From Anas platyrhynchos (lineage: Eukaryota > Chordata > Aves > Anseriformes > Anatidae): a stretch of 64,000 nucleotides of DNA. The stretch lies in assembly GCF_047663525.1 (NCBI RefSeq), contig NC_092589.1, forward strand, positions 62,367,501 to 62,431,500. Reading direction: 5' to 3'. The translations under genes were made by a program, and so were the position numbers. Below the pieces are notes generated by a model. It did not search any database, was not told where the DNA came from, and worked only from the letters and a program-made list of their open reading frames with translations. The number at the start of each line of letters is the position of its first letter. Position 1 is the stretch's first letter. Shown here one piece after another: positions 46,196-60,340 of this stretch.

Positions 46196-47454
46196 ACAAA
46201 AGAGCTGCTAACTCAGCATGGCTTGGATTATTCTAAATAACCACAAAGTTGTTTTGGAGACACCCAAATTAAGTCCAGACAAGTGACTAGACTAACACAA
46301 CATGGGATAATACTATGCAGAGATACATGCTTAAGCCCTGGAAGATAACTCCATTAATGGAGTTCACAGACTCCTAGATTTACAGTACTACACTCAACTA
46401 GGTTGTCTACAATTACAGTGCATTGGATAAAAAGAACAGTTCAACAGTCTCCCCCATACTTCTGAAATGTTTTCAGAATGACACCTCTTTTTTGAGTAGC
46501 TCTCCCCTCTACTTCCAAGACAGCCAGAGCACTGTATGCACTGTGAACATCTCAATTATCAGTAAAAATCAGTGACTAACAAATTCTCCCCAATTTAAAA
46601 CTTGTTTTCAATCACTGAGAAAATTTACCAGTACTCCATATGAAGGCCAACGCATAGCTGTTATGTGACAGCAGAGAATGAGAAGTATGAACTACTTCCT
46701 CCTCACCCAATGCCGCATGTCTTCTCCCTCCCCACGTACACCACTGATGCACCTCAAAAAATATTTATGAGTTCTCATTCAAGTACTTCAGCTGATAAAT
46801 TTAATATCACATTCCCTGGGGTAAGCAAAAAATAAAATATTGCATTGGCCTTCGCACATGTGGAGATTATATTACTTTACAATGAAACCCAGCAAGCTGC
46901 ATGTTACAGTTTTTACCACAATCTCCTTGGTAGGAATGTTTCAAATACATTGCATATGTGTGAATACAATATAAGCATACTGAAACGCTTTGAACGCTGT
47001 AATACATCAGACACTTGAGGGAGCAGGGGAAAAAAAAAACAATGCTTTCACCTATCCTGGCTCTTAAATCTGTGTAATCAGTTAAATGCTTCGTTTGACA
47101 CTGGTGTTTTCTAGGCCCATACAGCGCTACTTAGCTCGCCAATGTACAAAGCAATTTTCTAAACAGTTGACTACTCAAACATATCCCCAAAACTTCCGCA
47201 AATTTTCTGGCTAATTCATTAAATAAGATGTCTCTGTGAAAGCAAGCAAGCAGACAATACCGCTCGCTCTCTGCGTTATAGCTCCGAGAAAAACAGATTA
47301 GAGCCACAGCTGTACAACAAAGCCCTTTGGTTTATGCAAACACATTTCTACACGCCGTAAAAGTCGAAACATCTGACTCATTTGGATTTTACAAGGCTAC
47401 AACGCTGGAAAATATGCATAAAAATCGACAGCATTCAAAGGCATTAAAGAGTTT

Positions 47455-47665
47455 CAGCCCCCCATTTGTTTCCGATGTAGCCGGCTCGCCGGGATCACGG
47501 CAGCACCTGCTCCTATAACTCTCCGGGCCGCGGCCGCCCCATGGCCGCAGCGCTGCCGCCATCTTGTGGCGCAGCCGGGCAGCGCCGCGCCGCCATGGCG
47601 GGAAGGCCGCGAGCGGGGCCTTCGCCCTCTGCGCCCCACAGGCTGCGGCTCCAAAACAGTGCTAG
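47455..47665. promoter_or_regulatory. Isolated CpG island with YY1-type motif
   Basis: About 200 bp rich in CpG, in strong contrast to the AT-rich surroundings. It contains GCCGCCATCTTG (47555-47566), the reverse complement of the YY1 motif CAAGATGGCGGC, and a second GCCGCCATGGCGG palindrome (about 47588-47601). In YY1 promoters the ATGGCGGC strand is usually the transcribed sense, so a leftward (minus-strand) transcript starting near 47570-47600 is suggested. It could serve a long noncoding RNA or a distal first exon of the neighbouring gene to the left (EYA4 in human order). No coding frame here is convincing. Confidence 0.55.
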
Positions 47666-50269
47666 GTTAAACACACAGAGGCGACCATTTACAAGAATAA
47701 TGAAAAAAACGGCAACCCAACTGATGCTGTCTGTGTTAAATATGCCCAAATTGGTCGTGGGGGCACCATGCGTACATGGGCTTGCTGCAGTACCACAGTA
47801 ACTGATGGGTCAAACTGCCTTCAGATTCAATCATCTGAGACTCCTGTATGCTTTATTTTTCAGAAATAAAGTAACTTCCTATGCTTAAAGCAAGGCTTAA
47901 GTGGTTGTGAATGTATGGCAGTTCTATAGAGCAAGGCTCAGGCAAGCTGGGGCACACAGAAAATAAACACGCATCACCCTTTGTGAACATTTCCAAGTGA
48001 TTTGCCTACCTCTGCATAGGAGCTCAATGTCAGAGGTCAAATCTACATCACCACTTTTAACCACAAAACCATAGGTGGCTTTTTTATTTTTTATTAATTA
48101 TATATACATATAAAGCAGCCTGTGGAGGACTAGTTTGCTTACTAGTTGAGAGACTTTTACCCCCTTTTGCTACCACCAGCTGAAAACTGGAAAGTAAGGG
48201 GTGACAGTTGTTCAGACTGCTGATCTAAATCCAAATCTCAATTAGATGCTCCATTTAAAAACAAACTTGCACATTTTTGGCAGCTTCAAACAATAACATT
48301 AGGCCCAAACTGTTACTGGGATTCAGAGATAATTTCTCTTAACTAAAAATTATAGCACAATCAGGATAATGTGACATACTCTACACTCTGTTGCCCAGGT
48401 TTTATTAGTTCAAAAGATAAAAACATTTAAGGTTCCCAGGACAGATGCATTAGCTAGTGCAAATGTAACTGATGCAATGAACTAATAGCAACAAAAGAGA
48501 TCGGAATTGTGCAACTAGCATGTAATCACAAGCTGAAAAGGAAATATTTTCCAACTCACTTCAGAACAAGATGTTCCTTCATATTGCTTCAGCCTTCTTA
48601 TGAATTTGCTATGAGGAATTGTTTTCAGTTGTTGCAGTATGCATGGCCATCCAGGACTTTTTTTTTTTTTTTTAATAGAGATATATACAGATAAGTGGAG
48701 CTGAAAGAAATACTGCTTTTGTCTATATGTCTGTGCTACTCTGAAAGAACAGCTATTACCAGTGTGCTGTTGCCTCCTCTCCAAAAGGTGCCTTGTGAAG
48801 AGGCTACAGGTTGTGAACAGCCTGCCTGCAGATGCTGGCATTCTGGGGAACATGGGATCCTAAACTGTAAGTGGGAAGGTGCACCTTCCCTCATGGAAGC
48901 AGGGAGTACATGCCAGAGAAGAGAAGAGGAACGATTGGGCCTGGATATTCCCAACAGAAACATACCTGCTCAGGATACATCCCCCCAGTGCAAAATTCCT
49001 CCGTGATTGTATACGAATCCTTTTTGAGTCGCTACACAAGCAGTTAACAAATCCATCTCTATCCTTAAGTAGCCTGGGAGAACAGATTGAGGCAGACCAA
49101 TTCACCGAAGAATATGAATCCTTTAGTTAGTACTCCCCATTTCTGAAGAGGTTTAGCCCTTGTCATCCTTCTATGTAGACATCATGAAAACAGAAACCTT
49201 TTGTGAAGACCTGGGAAAGAAGAGCAAAGTAACCTTGCACGCACTTAAAAGAAGCTTGTCACAAATGTGATGCTGAGCATATTCAAAAAAATTATTTACT
49301 TATTGACACTTTATTGAACAGCATTCCAACAATTGCTTTGCAGTCTAAGCAACAAATAAATGAAGTAAGCCTGTATTAGAAAAGGCCCTGAGAAATGCAA
49401 GATGAGCACCTTATGCATCACAGGAACGGGTTCATGCCATAGCTCACATCAAGAAAGCCCACCTGGAGATACACAAAGATGGGGAGATTGCTCCAAGGTG
49501 ATGAGAGAAACTGTATGTTAAACTGCAAACAAGGAGTCAGGAATGTGAAGAATTATGGCAAAACTGAAATACAGATGGCATCCCATAGGCTTGAAGACCA
49601 GAAAAAATGACACTACTGTTTGCAATGATCAGAAAAGGATCAAGACAGGCTAGTCTTAAGAGGAAATATTAAAAGAGGTCATGATGAGTTTGAAACAGAT
49701 GGCTAGGTAGTCATGAGGAAAGAGTCAGATTAATCTGAGATTTTGATTTGGATATAAAACATACATGTGAAATTGAAGGGTAAAAGTCAGTCACTGCAGA
49801 AGTGGGAATTGAATTTATATGTATTAAGAAGTATAGCAGCTTGCTAAATTCCATGCACATGAAAGTATCTTATACGTGTGCTGACAAACATTATATTTTT
49901 CTACCCTGAAAGAAGCAATGCTGAAGAGTGTTACTTGAATATTGTCCACTCAAGTCGATGGAAGGAAAAAAATACGTGTTTTTATATATATATTTACCAT
50001 ATCTTATATTGATATACAAACACCTTTCATATGTGGTATCTGAGGGTGTTTCATTTGTTGTGGATGAGTTCTACAGCACATGACCTCCGTTCGCTTAAAC
50101 ACATACTCTTAAAATTAGAAACATTTCAGTATTTTTCCCCATTTGCCTTCCTAAACCTGTCCTAAGTATCTGCATTATGTTATCCAACACACTGGCTGCT
50201 AACAGTACAATCAATATAAAAGGTTACTTAGGGGGCATGGCTTTTTTCAACTCTGCCCTCAAAATACAA

Positions 50270-51180: not shown

Positions 51181-54100
51181 TTGGGGATTGAAAGGAGGAA
51201 GGAGAGTTACCAATGCCGGAAAGTTCAAAGGTCATGTTTTACTTCCATAGAATTATGGAATTATTGATTCCAGCAGCTAGCTACGTGAAGCAATCAACAC
51301 GGATTTAGGATATTCCACTGGTGGACCTTCATTCAAAAATAATGCCAATGCATGAGAAAACGACTCTGTAGGATTGTTACATACGATGGCATACTAATTA
51401 CATCATGTGTTCAATTGGGTTATAAGATCCTAAAAATAAACATTTGCTTGCTGACCAATGCCTGGGGAAAAAAAAAGTCTAAAATGAACCGTCTTTACTT
51501 AACTGTCTAAAACTAATTGCCTATAACCTTTGAGAAAATTTGCCATCTCTCGTTTTCCTTCAGGCTATGTAAATCAAGCCACAGCACTGTGCTTGTCTAC
51601 CACCCAGTATCCGGTTCAATGGCCAAACACAAAGTTAAAAATCCTCCTGAGGTTTCAAACCCCAAACACATCAGATCCAGTGTAGAGGGCAAAACTGACC
51701 AATAGATATATGCTCAGAGATCCTTTTCAGCACTGGATGGGAGATCTTGGTAAGGCCTTCAGAATGCAAAGCACATTGTCTGCACCAACCTTAGCACAGC
51801 AGACGCAAAGGGGGCAGGGGCAGACAGCTGGGATAAGTCCTACAGTACAACAGAACCAAGATGGTGTAAGCAATTCTAAATCAGCAACATTAAACAGAAA
51901 ATGTGTTTTGCACTTGTGTGTAACAGAAAGCATTAAGGACAGTGTGTTTTAATACCAAATACATTTTTCTGTGTGTGGGATTAATGCTCCCCAGCCATAA
52001 CATACTTTCAGCATTATATAAGATTGGCATATGTACTTTTCCCTTGGCAGAGCAGGCAGAATGCTGTCCAAAGGAAAGGGTGGAGCTCTCAGATATGGGT
52101 GCACAGCACAGTGACTTGCTGCTGACAAGCCGTGTCCATCCATCCATCTTTCGTATCTCCATGACATTTTGTGTAAAACTCAGCAGCATATTACACTGGG
52201 AGCTCCTGCTGTGAATGAGTTGTCCTGGTAACAAATCCCTCCCAGTGAGCACTCGGGTTCCCACTACATTACAAGGACACCTACTTCCCCCCTAACCAAA
52301 CGTGCATGCAGCAGCAGATCACTACCATTATGCCTGACTGTATGGGACTGATATAGTAAAGCAGGGGCATTGCCATGGGAAAGTACAGATGGCAAATGGA
52401 ATTGGCTCCCCAACAAGAACCGCAGCCAAACCCACAACTTCATCACAGCAGGAGCTGTGCAAATGCAGGGCATGAGATGGGTGAGTATCCAGATGCTCAA
52501 GTTTATCTAAGACTAAGAGGCATGTACAGGACACAAAACCAGTACTGACCAGCTTGACATGGCTCCAAGACAAAATGAGCTTTCCCAGTCATAAGATATT
52601 TTTATTTTGAATCCCCCAGAGGATGTTGCTAATACTACCTAGGTGTCTGTACTTCACACCTTCAGTGAAGTTTCTTCAAAGCTTTCCTAGCTTCTTCCTA
52701 CACAAATACAACCCAAGTTAAGAAATCCCACGTTGCTGCACGTTACCCATCCTTGTGGACAGATGATCTTCTAGATGTAGGCCTTAACTCTGACTAGGGT
52801 TTTGTTCCTGAAATGCACTACCACTTGGATGTTTTTATAATAGCCAGACAGAACATCGAGTGATGATACTGCCATCTAGCAGTGAACACATACTTTGAAT
52901 TATTTTTCTCCATGAGATGTTAGCGGAAGCACAAATGGGAAAAACTTGAGGTATTACACAACAGACTACCACATCCTGAGTGTATGAAGGTAATTAACAT
53001 TCAGACAACTTCTATGTAATTTCATTAAAGGAAAAGGTTATCAGCTTTAACTTATCTCAGAGTTCTTCAAGATCAATCACTTCAGCATTACAATTCATCT
53101 GGGCACTTCATCTTTCTTCTCAGTGTTATCCTTGCATTTTTCTCCTCCAAATGCAAATAGTACCAATCCACACCAAAGCTTTGGATGGGACATGTGCTTC
53201 ACACTGAAAGATCCCACCAATTTTTAAGTTGTACAAACAGAAATTTAATGTTGAGTTGGCCTCCAGTGAATTTGTTTCACTTAGGATGGCATAAGATAAA
53301 TCCTAACATCATTTGCCCATGCTAAAACAACCACAATTCTACCAAAAAGCTCCAAATCTTTAAGCAGGGTAGAGGAACCTCACGTGATCGTGTATGTGCA
53401 GAAGGTAAATATTTCTACATGACTTGTTTAAACTCCCTTTGTAGTCTAGGGCAAAGTCTATCTCAATCAGGTATCGCTCCCCTTCATTCTCCTGTCATGT
53501 TAAAATTGTTGTTAAAAAAATTGTTTTAGCCAAAACACAAACATCTGGAAGTGTTCAGTTAGCTTGCACAGGCTCAAAGACTTCTCAGATTTGAGCACAC
53601 GAGTCCATGGATTTTATCTTGATGAATCCTCACCCACTGCCCCAGGGGAGCTTACTGGATTGCACATTAGTTGCTCCCAGTCCAAAGATACAAGGACTGG
53701 GCAGGACTTACTATTCCTATATATATTCTGGTACAGAAGCATCAACAGCTTTCAATCTCTGCAGTACACAGGCCATTGAACCCAGGTACCAAGCTCTAGT
53801 TTGGGATCCCAAATCCCACTGTAGATTTAGCTATGATTGAGCACAGGACCAAGGCAAAGCAAACCATAAATATAACTGGACTGCCGCCAGCAGTAATGTT
53901 TCATATAGTTTTCTCTAGCATGTAGCAGGGAACATTATAAAAATGCCAAGGACAAAGATGCGTAAGTATTTTACGCATTTTCAGAAAAACCCAAATCCAT
54001 GGAAGATGCAGTCCCTTAGAACAGGGCAAAGGAAGTCTACTTTGGTATGTGCCTATATACAAGTGATATACTCAAGGCTTATTAGCCAAACTAAACTGAC

Positions 54101-55199
54101 AAAGTTTTGCAGTCTTTAAACTCTATTTAAAAAGGCATATTCATACAAGTTACACTATTTAGAAGCCTTTAGTGATCCAATGAGATCTGCAACCAAGGCT
54201 CTTACCTGCAACAGAATTTAGTTTCTATTATATGCAAAACAAAACAGAATTGGTAATCATACACTTGTTGATACCAACTGTAACTTGTTACCAATTTACC
54301 CAATGTGTACCTCTACTTGCAACATGATTGACATGCATGAAAGTGTCATGAAGTTGCATTTAACACCGTTACTGTGAAGCTGCAGACCAGAGTTAAGGTA
54401 CATAAGTTAAGCGATAAACATGCTTCTTGCTTTTAACCAGTCTTGGAACATGTAAGAAAACTTGAAAGGCTACAACAAAAACCTCTCAGAAATCAGCTCA
54501 CCCAAATCTAGCTACTGGGATGTTGTCCAAGAGTGTCATTGCAAAAAAATAGCAAAGCACCACATAAGATAAACCTTTAGTGAGAGCTGCAGTAAAGTGA
54601 ATACACTTGCTGAGCCCAGCATCTAGATGCCTGCCTCTTCACTACACAAATAGCTGGGGATAAGAAGTAAAAGGGGCTACAAGCGATAATGAAAATTTAA
54701 GTTCAAGAGCCTAAGAGGTAGACATGCATTCCAGCCTCCTCACTTGTACAGGTGCCCAGCCCCACACTGTCACTATACTCATGCCCTACTCACCAGTGTA
54801 ACGGTGCAAATCCTTGAGCCCACTTAAAAGCTGCTCTTTGCAGAAAATGCAAGACATCCAAAACTTGCAGGAGAGAGGTGATATTAAACCTGTTCCAATC
54901 CTGCCTCATTTCCAAAAATGGAAAACTGACAAATGAGTTCTGTACCTTACCACTGTCAGTGAGACCAAGACACTGGACAAGTCACAGTTAAGCACTGCCT
55001 TCTTTGAGCAGTGATCTGAAAAATTTGGCTACCCTGACTGCCAAGAACTCCTGCACACTTGCAAGTGCATGGCAATCCTACTAACACAAAAGTAATTCCA
55101 CCCACTATTTACTTCAAAATAGAGGGAAGGAAAATACACCTAGTGCCAAGTTAGTCTCCTGAAAAAAAACCACAAACAACGTATTTAAAGAATTCCTGC

Positions 55200-55283
55200 A
55201 ACATCTCAGAAGATTTGGGTAACAATTAAGGCAGTTCTCCTCACTTATTTCAGTAGAGGGAGCCAAATTTTCATCACAGATGC
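55200..55283 (-). ncRNA. Second SNORD100-like C/D box snoRNA, downstream of RPS12
   Basis: The minus strand has C box GTGATGA (55271-55277), D' box CTGA (55250-55253), a C'-like GTGAGGA, and D box CTGA (55206-55209). The guide before D', TTTGGCTCCCTCTA, is identical to that of the SNORD100 copy in RPS12 intron 4, so the same 18S segment would be targeted. The region before D also shares GTTACCCAA. The flanks differ, yet the ends still pair (GCATC with GATGT). It lies about 340 bp past the RPS12 poly(A) signal, so no obvious intron hosts it. It may sit in an intron of a longer RPS12 transcript or of a separate noncoding host, or it may be a recent relic. Confidence 0.75.
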
Positions 55284-55599
55284 AGCAGTACTTCAGACTT
55301 CCCCACACACACTAGTCTGGAACCCAAGCAGAAGCAGAGGCATAAGCACTGTCAGACCACGTGCACGCAGAGATCACAATCATCTGTCAGCACTTACGCA
55401 AATCACAAGGTGCGTCAAGTTCCCTAACCTTTATGTTATGAATATTAAAGGCATCATCATGGAAGAGGAGTTGCAGGGATTCCCACCATCTTTTTACGAA
55501 GCAGTTAAAAATATTTAAGAACTATTCCAAGACCTTTAAGTCCTTAAATCTCATGTTATCCTTTACAATCCAAATAATTATTCCACAGACCCATTAAAC

Positions 55600-55645: not shown

Positions 55646-59118
<3,473 letters not shown>

Positions 59119-59132
<14 letters not shown>

Positions 59133-59170
59133 GGCCCTCTCGGTGGGTGCCGCTCCCGCCCGGCTTCCTG
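59119..59170 (-). other. RPS12: RPS12 exon 2 with the start codon
   Basis: The acceptor reads TATTTGCAG/CAGGAAG on the minus strand. Because CAG is repeated, the exon may begin at 59170 or at 59167. It carries about 35-38 nt of 5'UTR, then ATGGCCGAGGAAGG and the donor GTGAGC. Only 14 coding nt lie in this exon. Confidence 0.85.
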
Positions 59171-59316
59171 CTGCAAATACAGACACAAACCGGCGCCGTG
59201 AGTGCCGGCGGCCTCCCCGCAGCCCCCGCCCGGCGCCCCCCGCCCGCGATGCCCGGCCGGCCGCGGGGATGGAGCCCGGCAGGCCCCGCCGCCGCCAGCG
59301 CCGCGCTCACGCTCAC

Positions 59317-59347
59317 CCGCCGCCGCCGACAGCCGCACGCCGAAGAG
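59317..59347 (-). other. RPS12: RPS12 noncoding exon 1 (5'TOP leader)
   Basis: Read on the minus strand, a pyrimidine run CCCCTCTTCGG lies 30 bp below a TATAAG box. A start at the C of CTCTTC (about 59347) gives a 5' terminal oligopyrimidine leader, the hallmark of ribosomal protein mRNAs and the target of growth-dependent translational control. The exon would end at GGCGG/GTGAGC near 59317, giving a 31-nt exon. The exact start is inferred from motif spacing. Confidence 0.75.
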
Positions 59348-59410
59348 GGGGCGGGGCTTCCGCCTCGCGCTCTTATAGCGGCCGAGGACCCCGGCGCGCG
59401 CGCGGGCGGG
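59348..59410 (-). promoter_or_regulatory. RPS12: RPS12 core promoter
   Basis: A TATA-like TATAAG (minus strand, 59372-59377) stands about 30 bp upstream of the pyrimidine start. A GC box (GGGGCGGGG on the plus strand, about 59347-59355) lies between TATA and start, and more GC-rich sequence lies upstream. A TATA-like box combined with a TOP start is common for ribosomal protein genes. Positions are from motif spacing only. Confidence 0.75.
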
Positions 59411-59545
59411 GGCTGCCCGCGGCGGTGCCTGACGAAAAGTAACCAGAGGGTGGCGGGTGGCTGCGCTGCTCCCCGTGCCCTGGGCTGCCGAGCGCGGGGC
59501 TGTGAGAGCAGCGCTGCCCGCTCCTCACGCCGCCAGCCTCCAAGG

Positions 59546-60340
59546 CTTATGTGATCACCCCGAATTGTTGTTTCACTGACGGCTTGAAACTCTGAAACTC
59601 TCCGCTGCAGCTTTGAGACGTTCCCCTTTAGCAGCTCCTGGGGGCGTTTGGCTGTGCCCTCTCCCTTCCTTCCTCTGCCAGAAGTGGTGTTATCAGTGGG
59701 AACGTGTCGCTTCGTGTTGGCCAAACCCCAGAAAGCACGCAGACACACACAAATGATAATGCCCACCCTGTTTCCCTCTCCCCAGGGTGATGTTCTTCCC
59801 TATATCTACCCCTCAGTCCTCCTGCTCCCCTTAAACAGCCCCAGAAATTCTCAATCTAAAGAGGTTTTGTACTGAGTGCAACAATAAACCGATCCCTCCC
59901 TCAATGTCATCATAGACACAAAAAGTCTGCCAAAAGGCACGTTAGGATTGTTGGGTACATGCAATATATTTTCTCTCCACGAGATGGAAGTATGCACATC
60001 TGAAAGATTCCTGTTACAGCAAAGGTCGCGATCACAGGGAAATTACAGTCCCTGGAGGTCAAAGCTGTAAGAACGGTTTTCCTAGAACAGTTGCAAGGCA
60101 ACAAACCTGTTGTGTTATCTATATGTAGAGGGGAGGTGCTCGTTGGCACTGAACTCTGTTGCAATGTTGGTATAGCACACTAGATATATGTATATAATAA
60201 TTAAAGAAAATATATGATCCAGTTTGAAAGTCCACTCCACTGTACAGTGTGTTAATGTGAACTCAGCATTCATGTGGGCACAGCACACTGGTGGCACTCC
60301 ACCTGCTCTACAATTCTGTCCATTTTCCTACAAGGAGTTT
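59546..60340. other. RPS12 upstream flank
   Basis: Unique-looking sequence between the CpG island and the solo LTR. It contains only the X-box-like palindrome at 60090-60102. No divergent gene is apparent. Confidence 0.6.
60090..60102. promoter_or_regulatory. RFX X-box-like palindrome upstream of RPS12
   Basis: GTTGC-AAG-GCAAC is a perfect inverted repeat with a 3-bp spacer that fits the RFX X-box layout, about 740 bp upstream of the RPS12 start. Confidence 0.35.

Follow-up and report, generated by a model that had tools for sequence, protein, structure and literature searches.

Beyond the poly(A) signal of RPS12, and on the strand of that gene, the window analysed here (the whole stretch of 64,000 nucleotides, C3:62367501-62431500) carries a box C/D snoRNA of the SNORD100 family in addition to the one in RPS12 intron 4, and this additional copy (copy 2, the intronic one being copy 1) is a real second SNORD100 in an unusual position, probably maintained there. 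The explanation that we favour, with moderate confidence, is that copy 2 is a second maintained SNORD100 gene, made by RPS12-driven transcription running past the poly(A) site, and that its RNA is freed either by splicing or by a block to XRN2. It is the position of copy 2, the snoRNA family itself being known, that deserves attention: 433 of 475 expressed human snoRNAs are counted as intronic in PMC8176728, and a maintained guide lying past the point at which its own host transcript is polyadenylated would offer a natural way to see whether the RNA left after cleavage can act as the precursor of a snoRNA or, alternatively, would expose an unrecognised RPS12 last exon.

The identity of copy 2 is straightforward. 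An Rfam cmscan of the window matched it to SNORD100 (RF00609) over the whole model (1-81) with 71.4 bits and an E-value of 6.5e-14, above the gathering score of 58 bits, which bears out the complete paralogue, sharing guide and strand with copy 1 and lying beyond the poly(A) signal, that the first-pass annotation had described, as well as its location past both the RPS12 stop codon and the AATAAA; only the distance given there needs correction, the 5' end lying ~354 nt past the signal and not about 340. Copy 2 resembles the intron-4 SNORD100/HBII-429, ~1.2 kb away, in boxes, guide, strand and score (71.4 vs 73.4 bits) and differs from it in its linkers, its terminal stem and its surroundings, copy 1 being inside an ordinary RPS12 intron. 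The guide together with box D' (GGCUCCCUCUA-CUGA) is identical in the two, its target assignment being taken from PMC3412847, where SNORD100 is placed in RPS12 from sponges to vertebrates and guides 18S G436 (a target also tabulated in PMC3511168); the RNA of copy 2 would thus be expected to direct G436 methylation, like that of the intron-4 copy. Boxes C (UGAUGA) and D (CUGA) of copy 2 adjoin its terminal stem, which is the k-turn arrangement. As to the target itself, a 21-nt 18S fragment was matched exactly nowhere in the 1.26-Gb assembly, and rDNA therefore seems to be absent or withheld from the latter, unless the fragment used is wrong.

Table 1. Features of the RPS12 region bearing on the second SNORD100 copy (positions counted from the first letter of the window).
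Feature	Position	Strand	Basis
SNORD100 copy 2, box C/D snoRNA	55200-55284	-	Rfam RF00609
Copy 2 box C, UGAUGA with G before	55271-55276	-	Sequence
Copy 2 guide GGCUCCCUCUA, immediately 5' of D'; predicted target 18S Gm436 (human numbering)	55254-55264	-	Same letters in intron-4 copy
Copy 2 box D', CUGA	55250-55253	-	Sequence
Copy 2 box D, CUGA	55206-55209	-	Sequence
Copy 2 terminal stem, 5' arm	55278-55289	-	Pairs with 55194-55205, −13.3 kcal/mol
Copy 2 terminal stem, 3' arm	55194-55205	-	Pairs with 55278-55289
Candidate 3' splice site, TTTTTTTTCAG/G	55158-55169	-	Score 9.5, 51st among the 4580 AGs of this strand
Weak candidate 5' splice site in RPS12 3' flank, GC/GTAAGT	55392-55397	-	Score 4.1, 319th among 3633 GTs
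RPS12 poly(A) signal, AATAAA	55638-55643	-	Sequence
SNORA33, RPS12 intron 5	56045-56180	-	Rfam, 97.7 bits
SNORD100 copy 1, RPS12 intron 4	56468-56554	-	Rfam, 73.4 bits
SNORD101, RPS12 intron before exon 4	57842-57916	-	Rfam, 75.4 bits
CpG island over RPS12 5' side, the closest one in the upstream direction from copy 2	58751-59750	-	CpG criteria

That copy 2 has been maintained is suggested by where the two copies differ. None of 38 element positions (box C, guide, D', C', the UACCCAA block and D; picked partly after viewing the alignment) differs between them, the differences being found at 13 of 29 linker positions and in 10 of the 12 consensus terminal-stem columns, which agrees with the earlier remark that the boxes, the guide and a block before D are kept while the linkers differ. 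When changes were polarised by copy 1 and the Rfam consensus, the latter being only a stand-in for the ancestor, and when predefined elements alone were counted (C, guide, D' and D, 24 positions), copy-2-side changes amounted to 0/24 in the elements vs 5/43 outside the stem (Fisher p = 0.10); the value fell to 0.0055 with the stem added (8/12 changed) and to 0.012 with the 38 positions, which are in part post hoc. The terminal stem of copy 2, 12 bases on each side, is slightly stronger (−13.3 kcal/mol) than those of copy 1 (−12.2) and SNORD101 (−10.4 kcal/mol) and is matched by a fraction of 0.00135 of 20,000 flank pairs drawn at random with the spacing fixed (it beats ~99.86% of them); such a strong stem made of other letters implies that the pairing was kept, or rebuilt, with a different sequence. 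Selection, as suggested in the first-pass annotation, is thus backed by the intact boxes and guide and by the stem, the polarised predefined-element test giving a p of 0.10. Taken together, the element, linker, stem and flank comparisons render a relic less likely than a maintained gene. The two copies and the Rfam consensus all have the UACCCAA block (55215-55221 and 56486-56492, minus strand), which is apparently no ordinary D guide, since it is kept while the bases adjoining D vary.

The flanks and the rest of the genome bear on how copy 2 came about. Across the assembly (1,261,873,621 bases, 42 contigs) SNORD100 is matched by copies 1 and 2 only, in a scan that scored 61 of 83,784 first-look candidates and whose counts for large families are lower bounds; copy 2 is therefore not one of a swarm of SNORD100 copies, a possibility that had been entertained and was rejected. 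The 991 nt around it likewise match only themselves, plus copy 1 across the core. None of three CR1-type motifs was matched in the window. When copy 2 was compared with copy 1 against 300 shuffles, none scored as well for the SNORD100 core, whereas 216 and 256 did for the 200-nt flanks on either side and all 300 for the stretch from box D to the splice site, i.e., no flank homology between the copies was detectable in these tests. The diverged linkers and this lack of detectable flank homology mean that copy 2 is not a fresh duplicate, just as had been proposed. A partial duplication of RPS12 including exons was discarded as well, the flanks and the putative exon downstream of copy 2 being no more similar than shuffles (187/300 and 278/300 as good for that exon against RPS12 exons 5 and 6, respectively), and so was retroposition, there being no A tail in the 3' flank examined and nothing resembling a target-site duplication where copy 2 begins and ends (the best direct repeat around copy 2 is 6 nt long, 28 and 42 nt off the edges). 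Searching the genome with the RPS12 protein gave four exon matches at E ≤ 0.001, and since all of them are inside the window, no second RPS12 gene or processed copy was found. Six linker bases are common to both copies against the Rfam consensus, as would be expected had the duplication taken place within the lineage of this genome, and a SNORD100 pattern search of viral and genome contig collections (non-vertebrate) returned 0 matches. Copy 2 would accordingly be pictured as having arisen, within that lineage, from a duplication that took in hardly anything beyond the snoRNA core, presumably long enough ago for the linkers to have diverged. The cis-duplicated snoRNA paralogues described for chicken (PMC2653536) are similar in being local duplications with the guide kept and other parts changed, and dissimilar in that they mostly arise in adjacent host introns, unlike a copy beyond RPS12.

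Whether such a duplicate is still made into RNA is where the first rival explanation enters, namely that copy 2 is a silent SNORD100, not made or too scarce to matter, that has so far escaped damage. This would be in keeping with the p of 0.10 from the predefined elements, with the human figures in PMC8176728 (21% of annotated snoRNAs are intergenic vs 9%, or 42/475, of the expressed ones, suggesting that most annotated intergenic snoRNAs are unexpressed) and with the chicken catalogue of PMC2653536, in which the HBII-429 homologue GGgCD8 is entered as one isoform, in RPS12 intron 4; it sits poorly with the excess of linker over element differences (13/29 vs 0/38), with a terminal stem retained in other letters and with a duplication that, having left no flank homology, is not recent. 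We regard silence as possible, if rather unlikely. The one isoform in the chicken catalogue also means that copy 2 may be distributed more narrowly than across all birds, or may have been missed in chicken. A second SNORD100 beyond RPS12 was not found described in the open-licence literature searched; in the main text of a survey of 48 bird genomes (PMC4378963) SNORD100 goes unnamed, and for mouse PMC10287158 gives Snord100 in Rps12 intron 4 and Snora33 in intron 5, naming no others.

If copy 2 is made, transcription most likely starts at the RPS12 promoter and continues past the RPS12 poly(A) site. By the criteria used, the window has two CpG islands only, the one on the 5' side of RPS12 (Table 1) and another at 47301-47850, with none between 47.9 and 58.7 kb. 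The latter island is ~7.4 kb beyond copy 2, and no gene was identified there, Rfam being the family search that covered it. An independently transcribed snoRNA with a Pol II promoter of its own, for which one could invoke the position of copy 2 outside the RPS12 gene and the 42 of 475 expressed human snoRNAs that are intergenic and thus likely to have own promoters (PMC8176728), would have to do without a CpG island nearby and with a single match to four TATA-like patterns in the 356-nt 5' flank (CATAAA at 55435, ~150 nt upstream), and the place of copy 2 close behind RPS12 on the same strand speaks against it too; we consider it improbable. A separate noncoding host gene, with copy 2 in its intron and a promoter either in the interval that separates RPS12 from the snoRNA or at a point more upstream, could make use of the 3' splice site at 55158, but it would need a promoter in or beyond the CpG-island-free 47.9-58.7 kb and is very improbable indeed.

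Returning to RPS12-driven transcription, the first of two ways of release is splicing, in which copy 2 would lie in an intron of an RPS12 transcript that is extended, or has an alternative last exon, and uses the 55158 acceptor; taken as a complete explanation, this is a realistic possibility that we hold tentatively. The acceptor, which is absent from the first-pass annotation, is the first good one after copy 2 and reads TTTTTTTTCAG/GAG, its last intronic base (55159) being 47 nt past box D. Scored with the same splice-site matrices, it falls between the acceptors of RPS12 exon 6 (8.0, rank 112) and exon 4 (12.9, rank 7, of 4580), and it can be called suggestive only, because an acceptor as good is expected by chance 0.049 times in a 61-nt stretch. 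Box C/D snoRNAs of the highest abundance are mostly <100 nt from the 3' splice site, ~70 nt being optimal (PMC8178906), and the optimal distance to the branch point is ~50 nt (PMC8162545); as the corresponding distance read from the sequence for copy 1 in intron 4 is 76 nt, the 47 nt of copy 2 are at the short end, and a plausible branch A can be read ~28 nt before the putative exon, ~20 nt after box D. A donor for this acceptor is in principle available at the end of RPS12 exon 5 (56298), the joining of which to 55158 is predicted to give a short alternative C-terminus ending ETNLALGVFSFPLF, followed by a stop. Apart from the weak candidate in Table 1, the 3' flank has higher-scoring donors at 55428 (rank 91) and 55486 (rank 114 of 3633 GTs), these having no further support. 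Past the acceptor, no AATAAA or ATTAAA occurs between 55158 and 53249, where the next such signal is situated, and the variants present include AGTAAA at 55113 and weaker ones. Among the routes proposed previously, RPS12 readthrough with an extra 3' exon has therefore gained some support from the acceptor 47 nt past D, an own promoter being the least supported. More strong acceptor-like sites are found on the minus strand at 51461 (14.5 bits, rank 2) and 54653 (10.9 bits, rank 26, of 4580); they could belong to exons still further along a readthrough or noncoding RNA.

The second way of release has a precedent in the SPA1 and SPA2 RNAs, which are 5' snoRNA-ended and 3' polyadenylated and involve SNORD107 and SNORD109A beyond SNURF-SNRPN, a C/D snoRNA past the poly(A) site of that host blocking XRN2 on the downstream cleavage product (PMC11028025). 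Copy 2 is also a C/D snoRNA past the poly(A) site of a host, and by analogy snoRNP proteins bound to the downstream cleavage product would halt XRN2 at the 5' end of the snoRNA; the likeness ends with the poly(A) signal, which is weak in SNURF-SNRPN (PMC11028025) and canonical in RPS12, where a GT-rich stretch follows it. As a complete explanation we find such a release conceivable, if on the unlikely side, and place splicing slightly ahead of it. That a vertebrate housekeeping methylation guide should regularly be made from what remains downstream once the transcript of a ribosomal-protein gene has been cleaved, with its snoRNP stopping XRN2, strikes us as doubtful. Were it true, transcription that is otherwise discarded would yield a guide RNA and possibly also one of the SPA type, and the output of the snoRNA would be tied to RPS12 3'-end formation and not to splicing.

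Some minor points concern the RPS12 gene itself. It is on the minus strand, and the coding exons read are one ending at 58572 (VMDVNTALQ...ALDK), 57000-56898, 56400-56299 and one from 55708 to the stop codon. An acceptor-like site at 58312 was ruled out as an RPS12 exon edge, as one exon ends at 58572 and the next begins at 57000. SNORD101, which has one match in the whole assembly, stands ~840 nt upstream of the acceptor of exon 4, a much longer distance than is usual for C/D snoRNAs, and an acceptor-like AG (8.9 bits) is present between the two at 57548.
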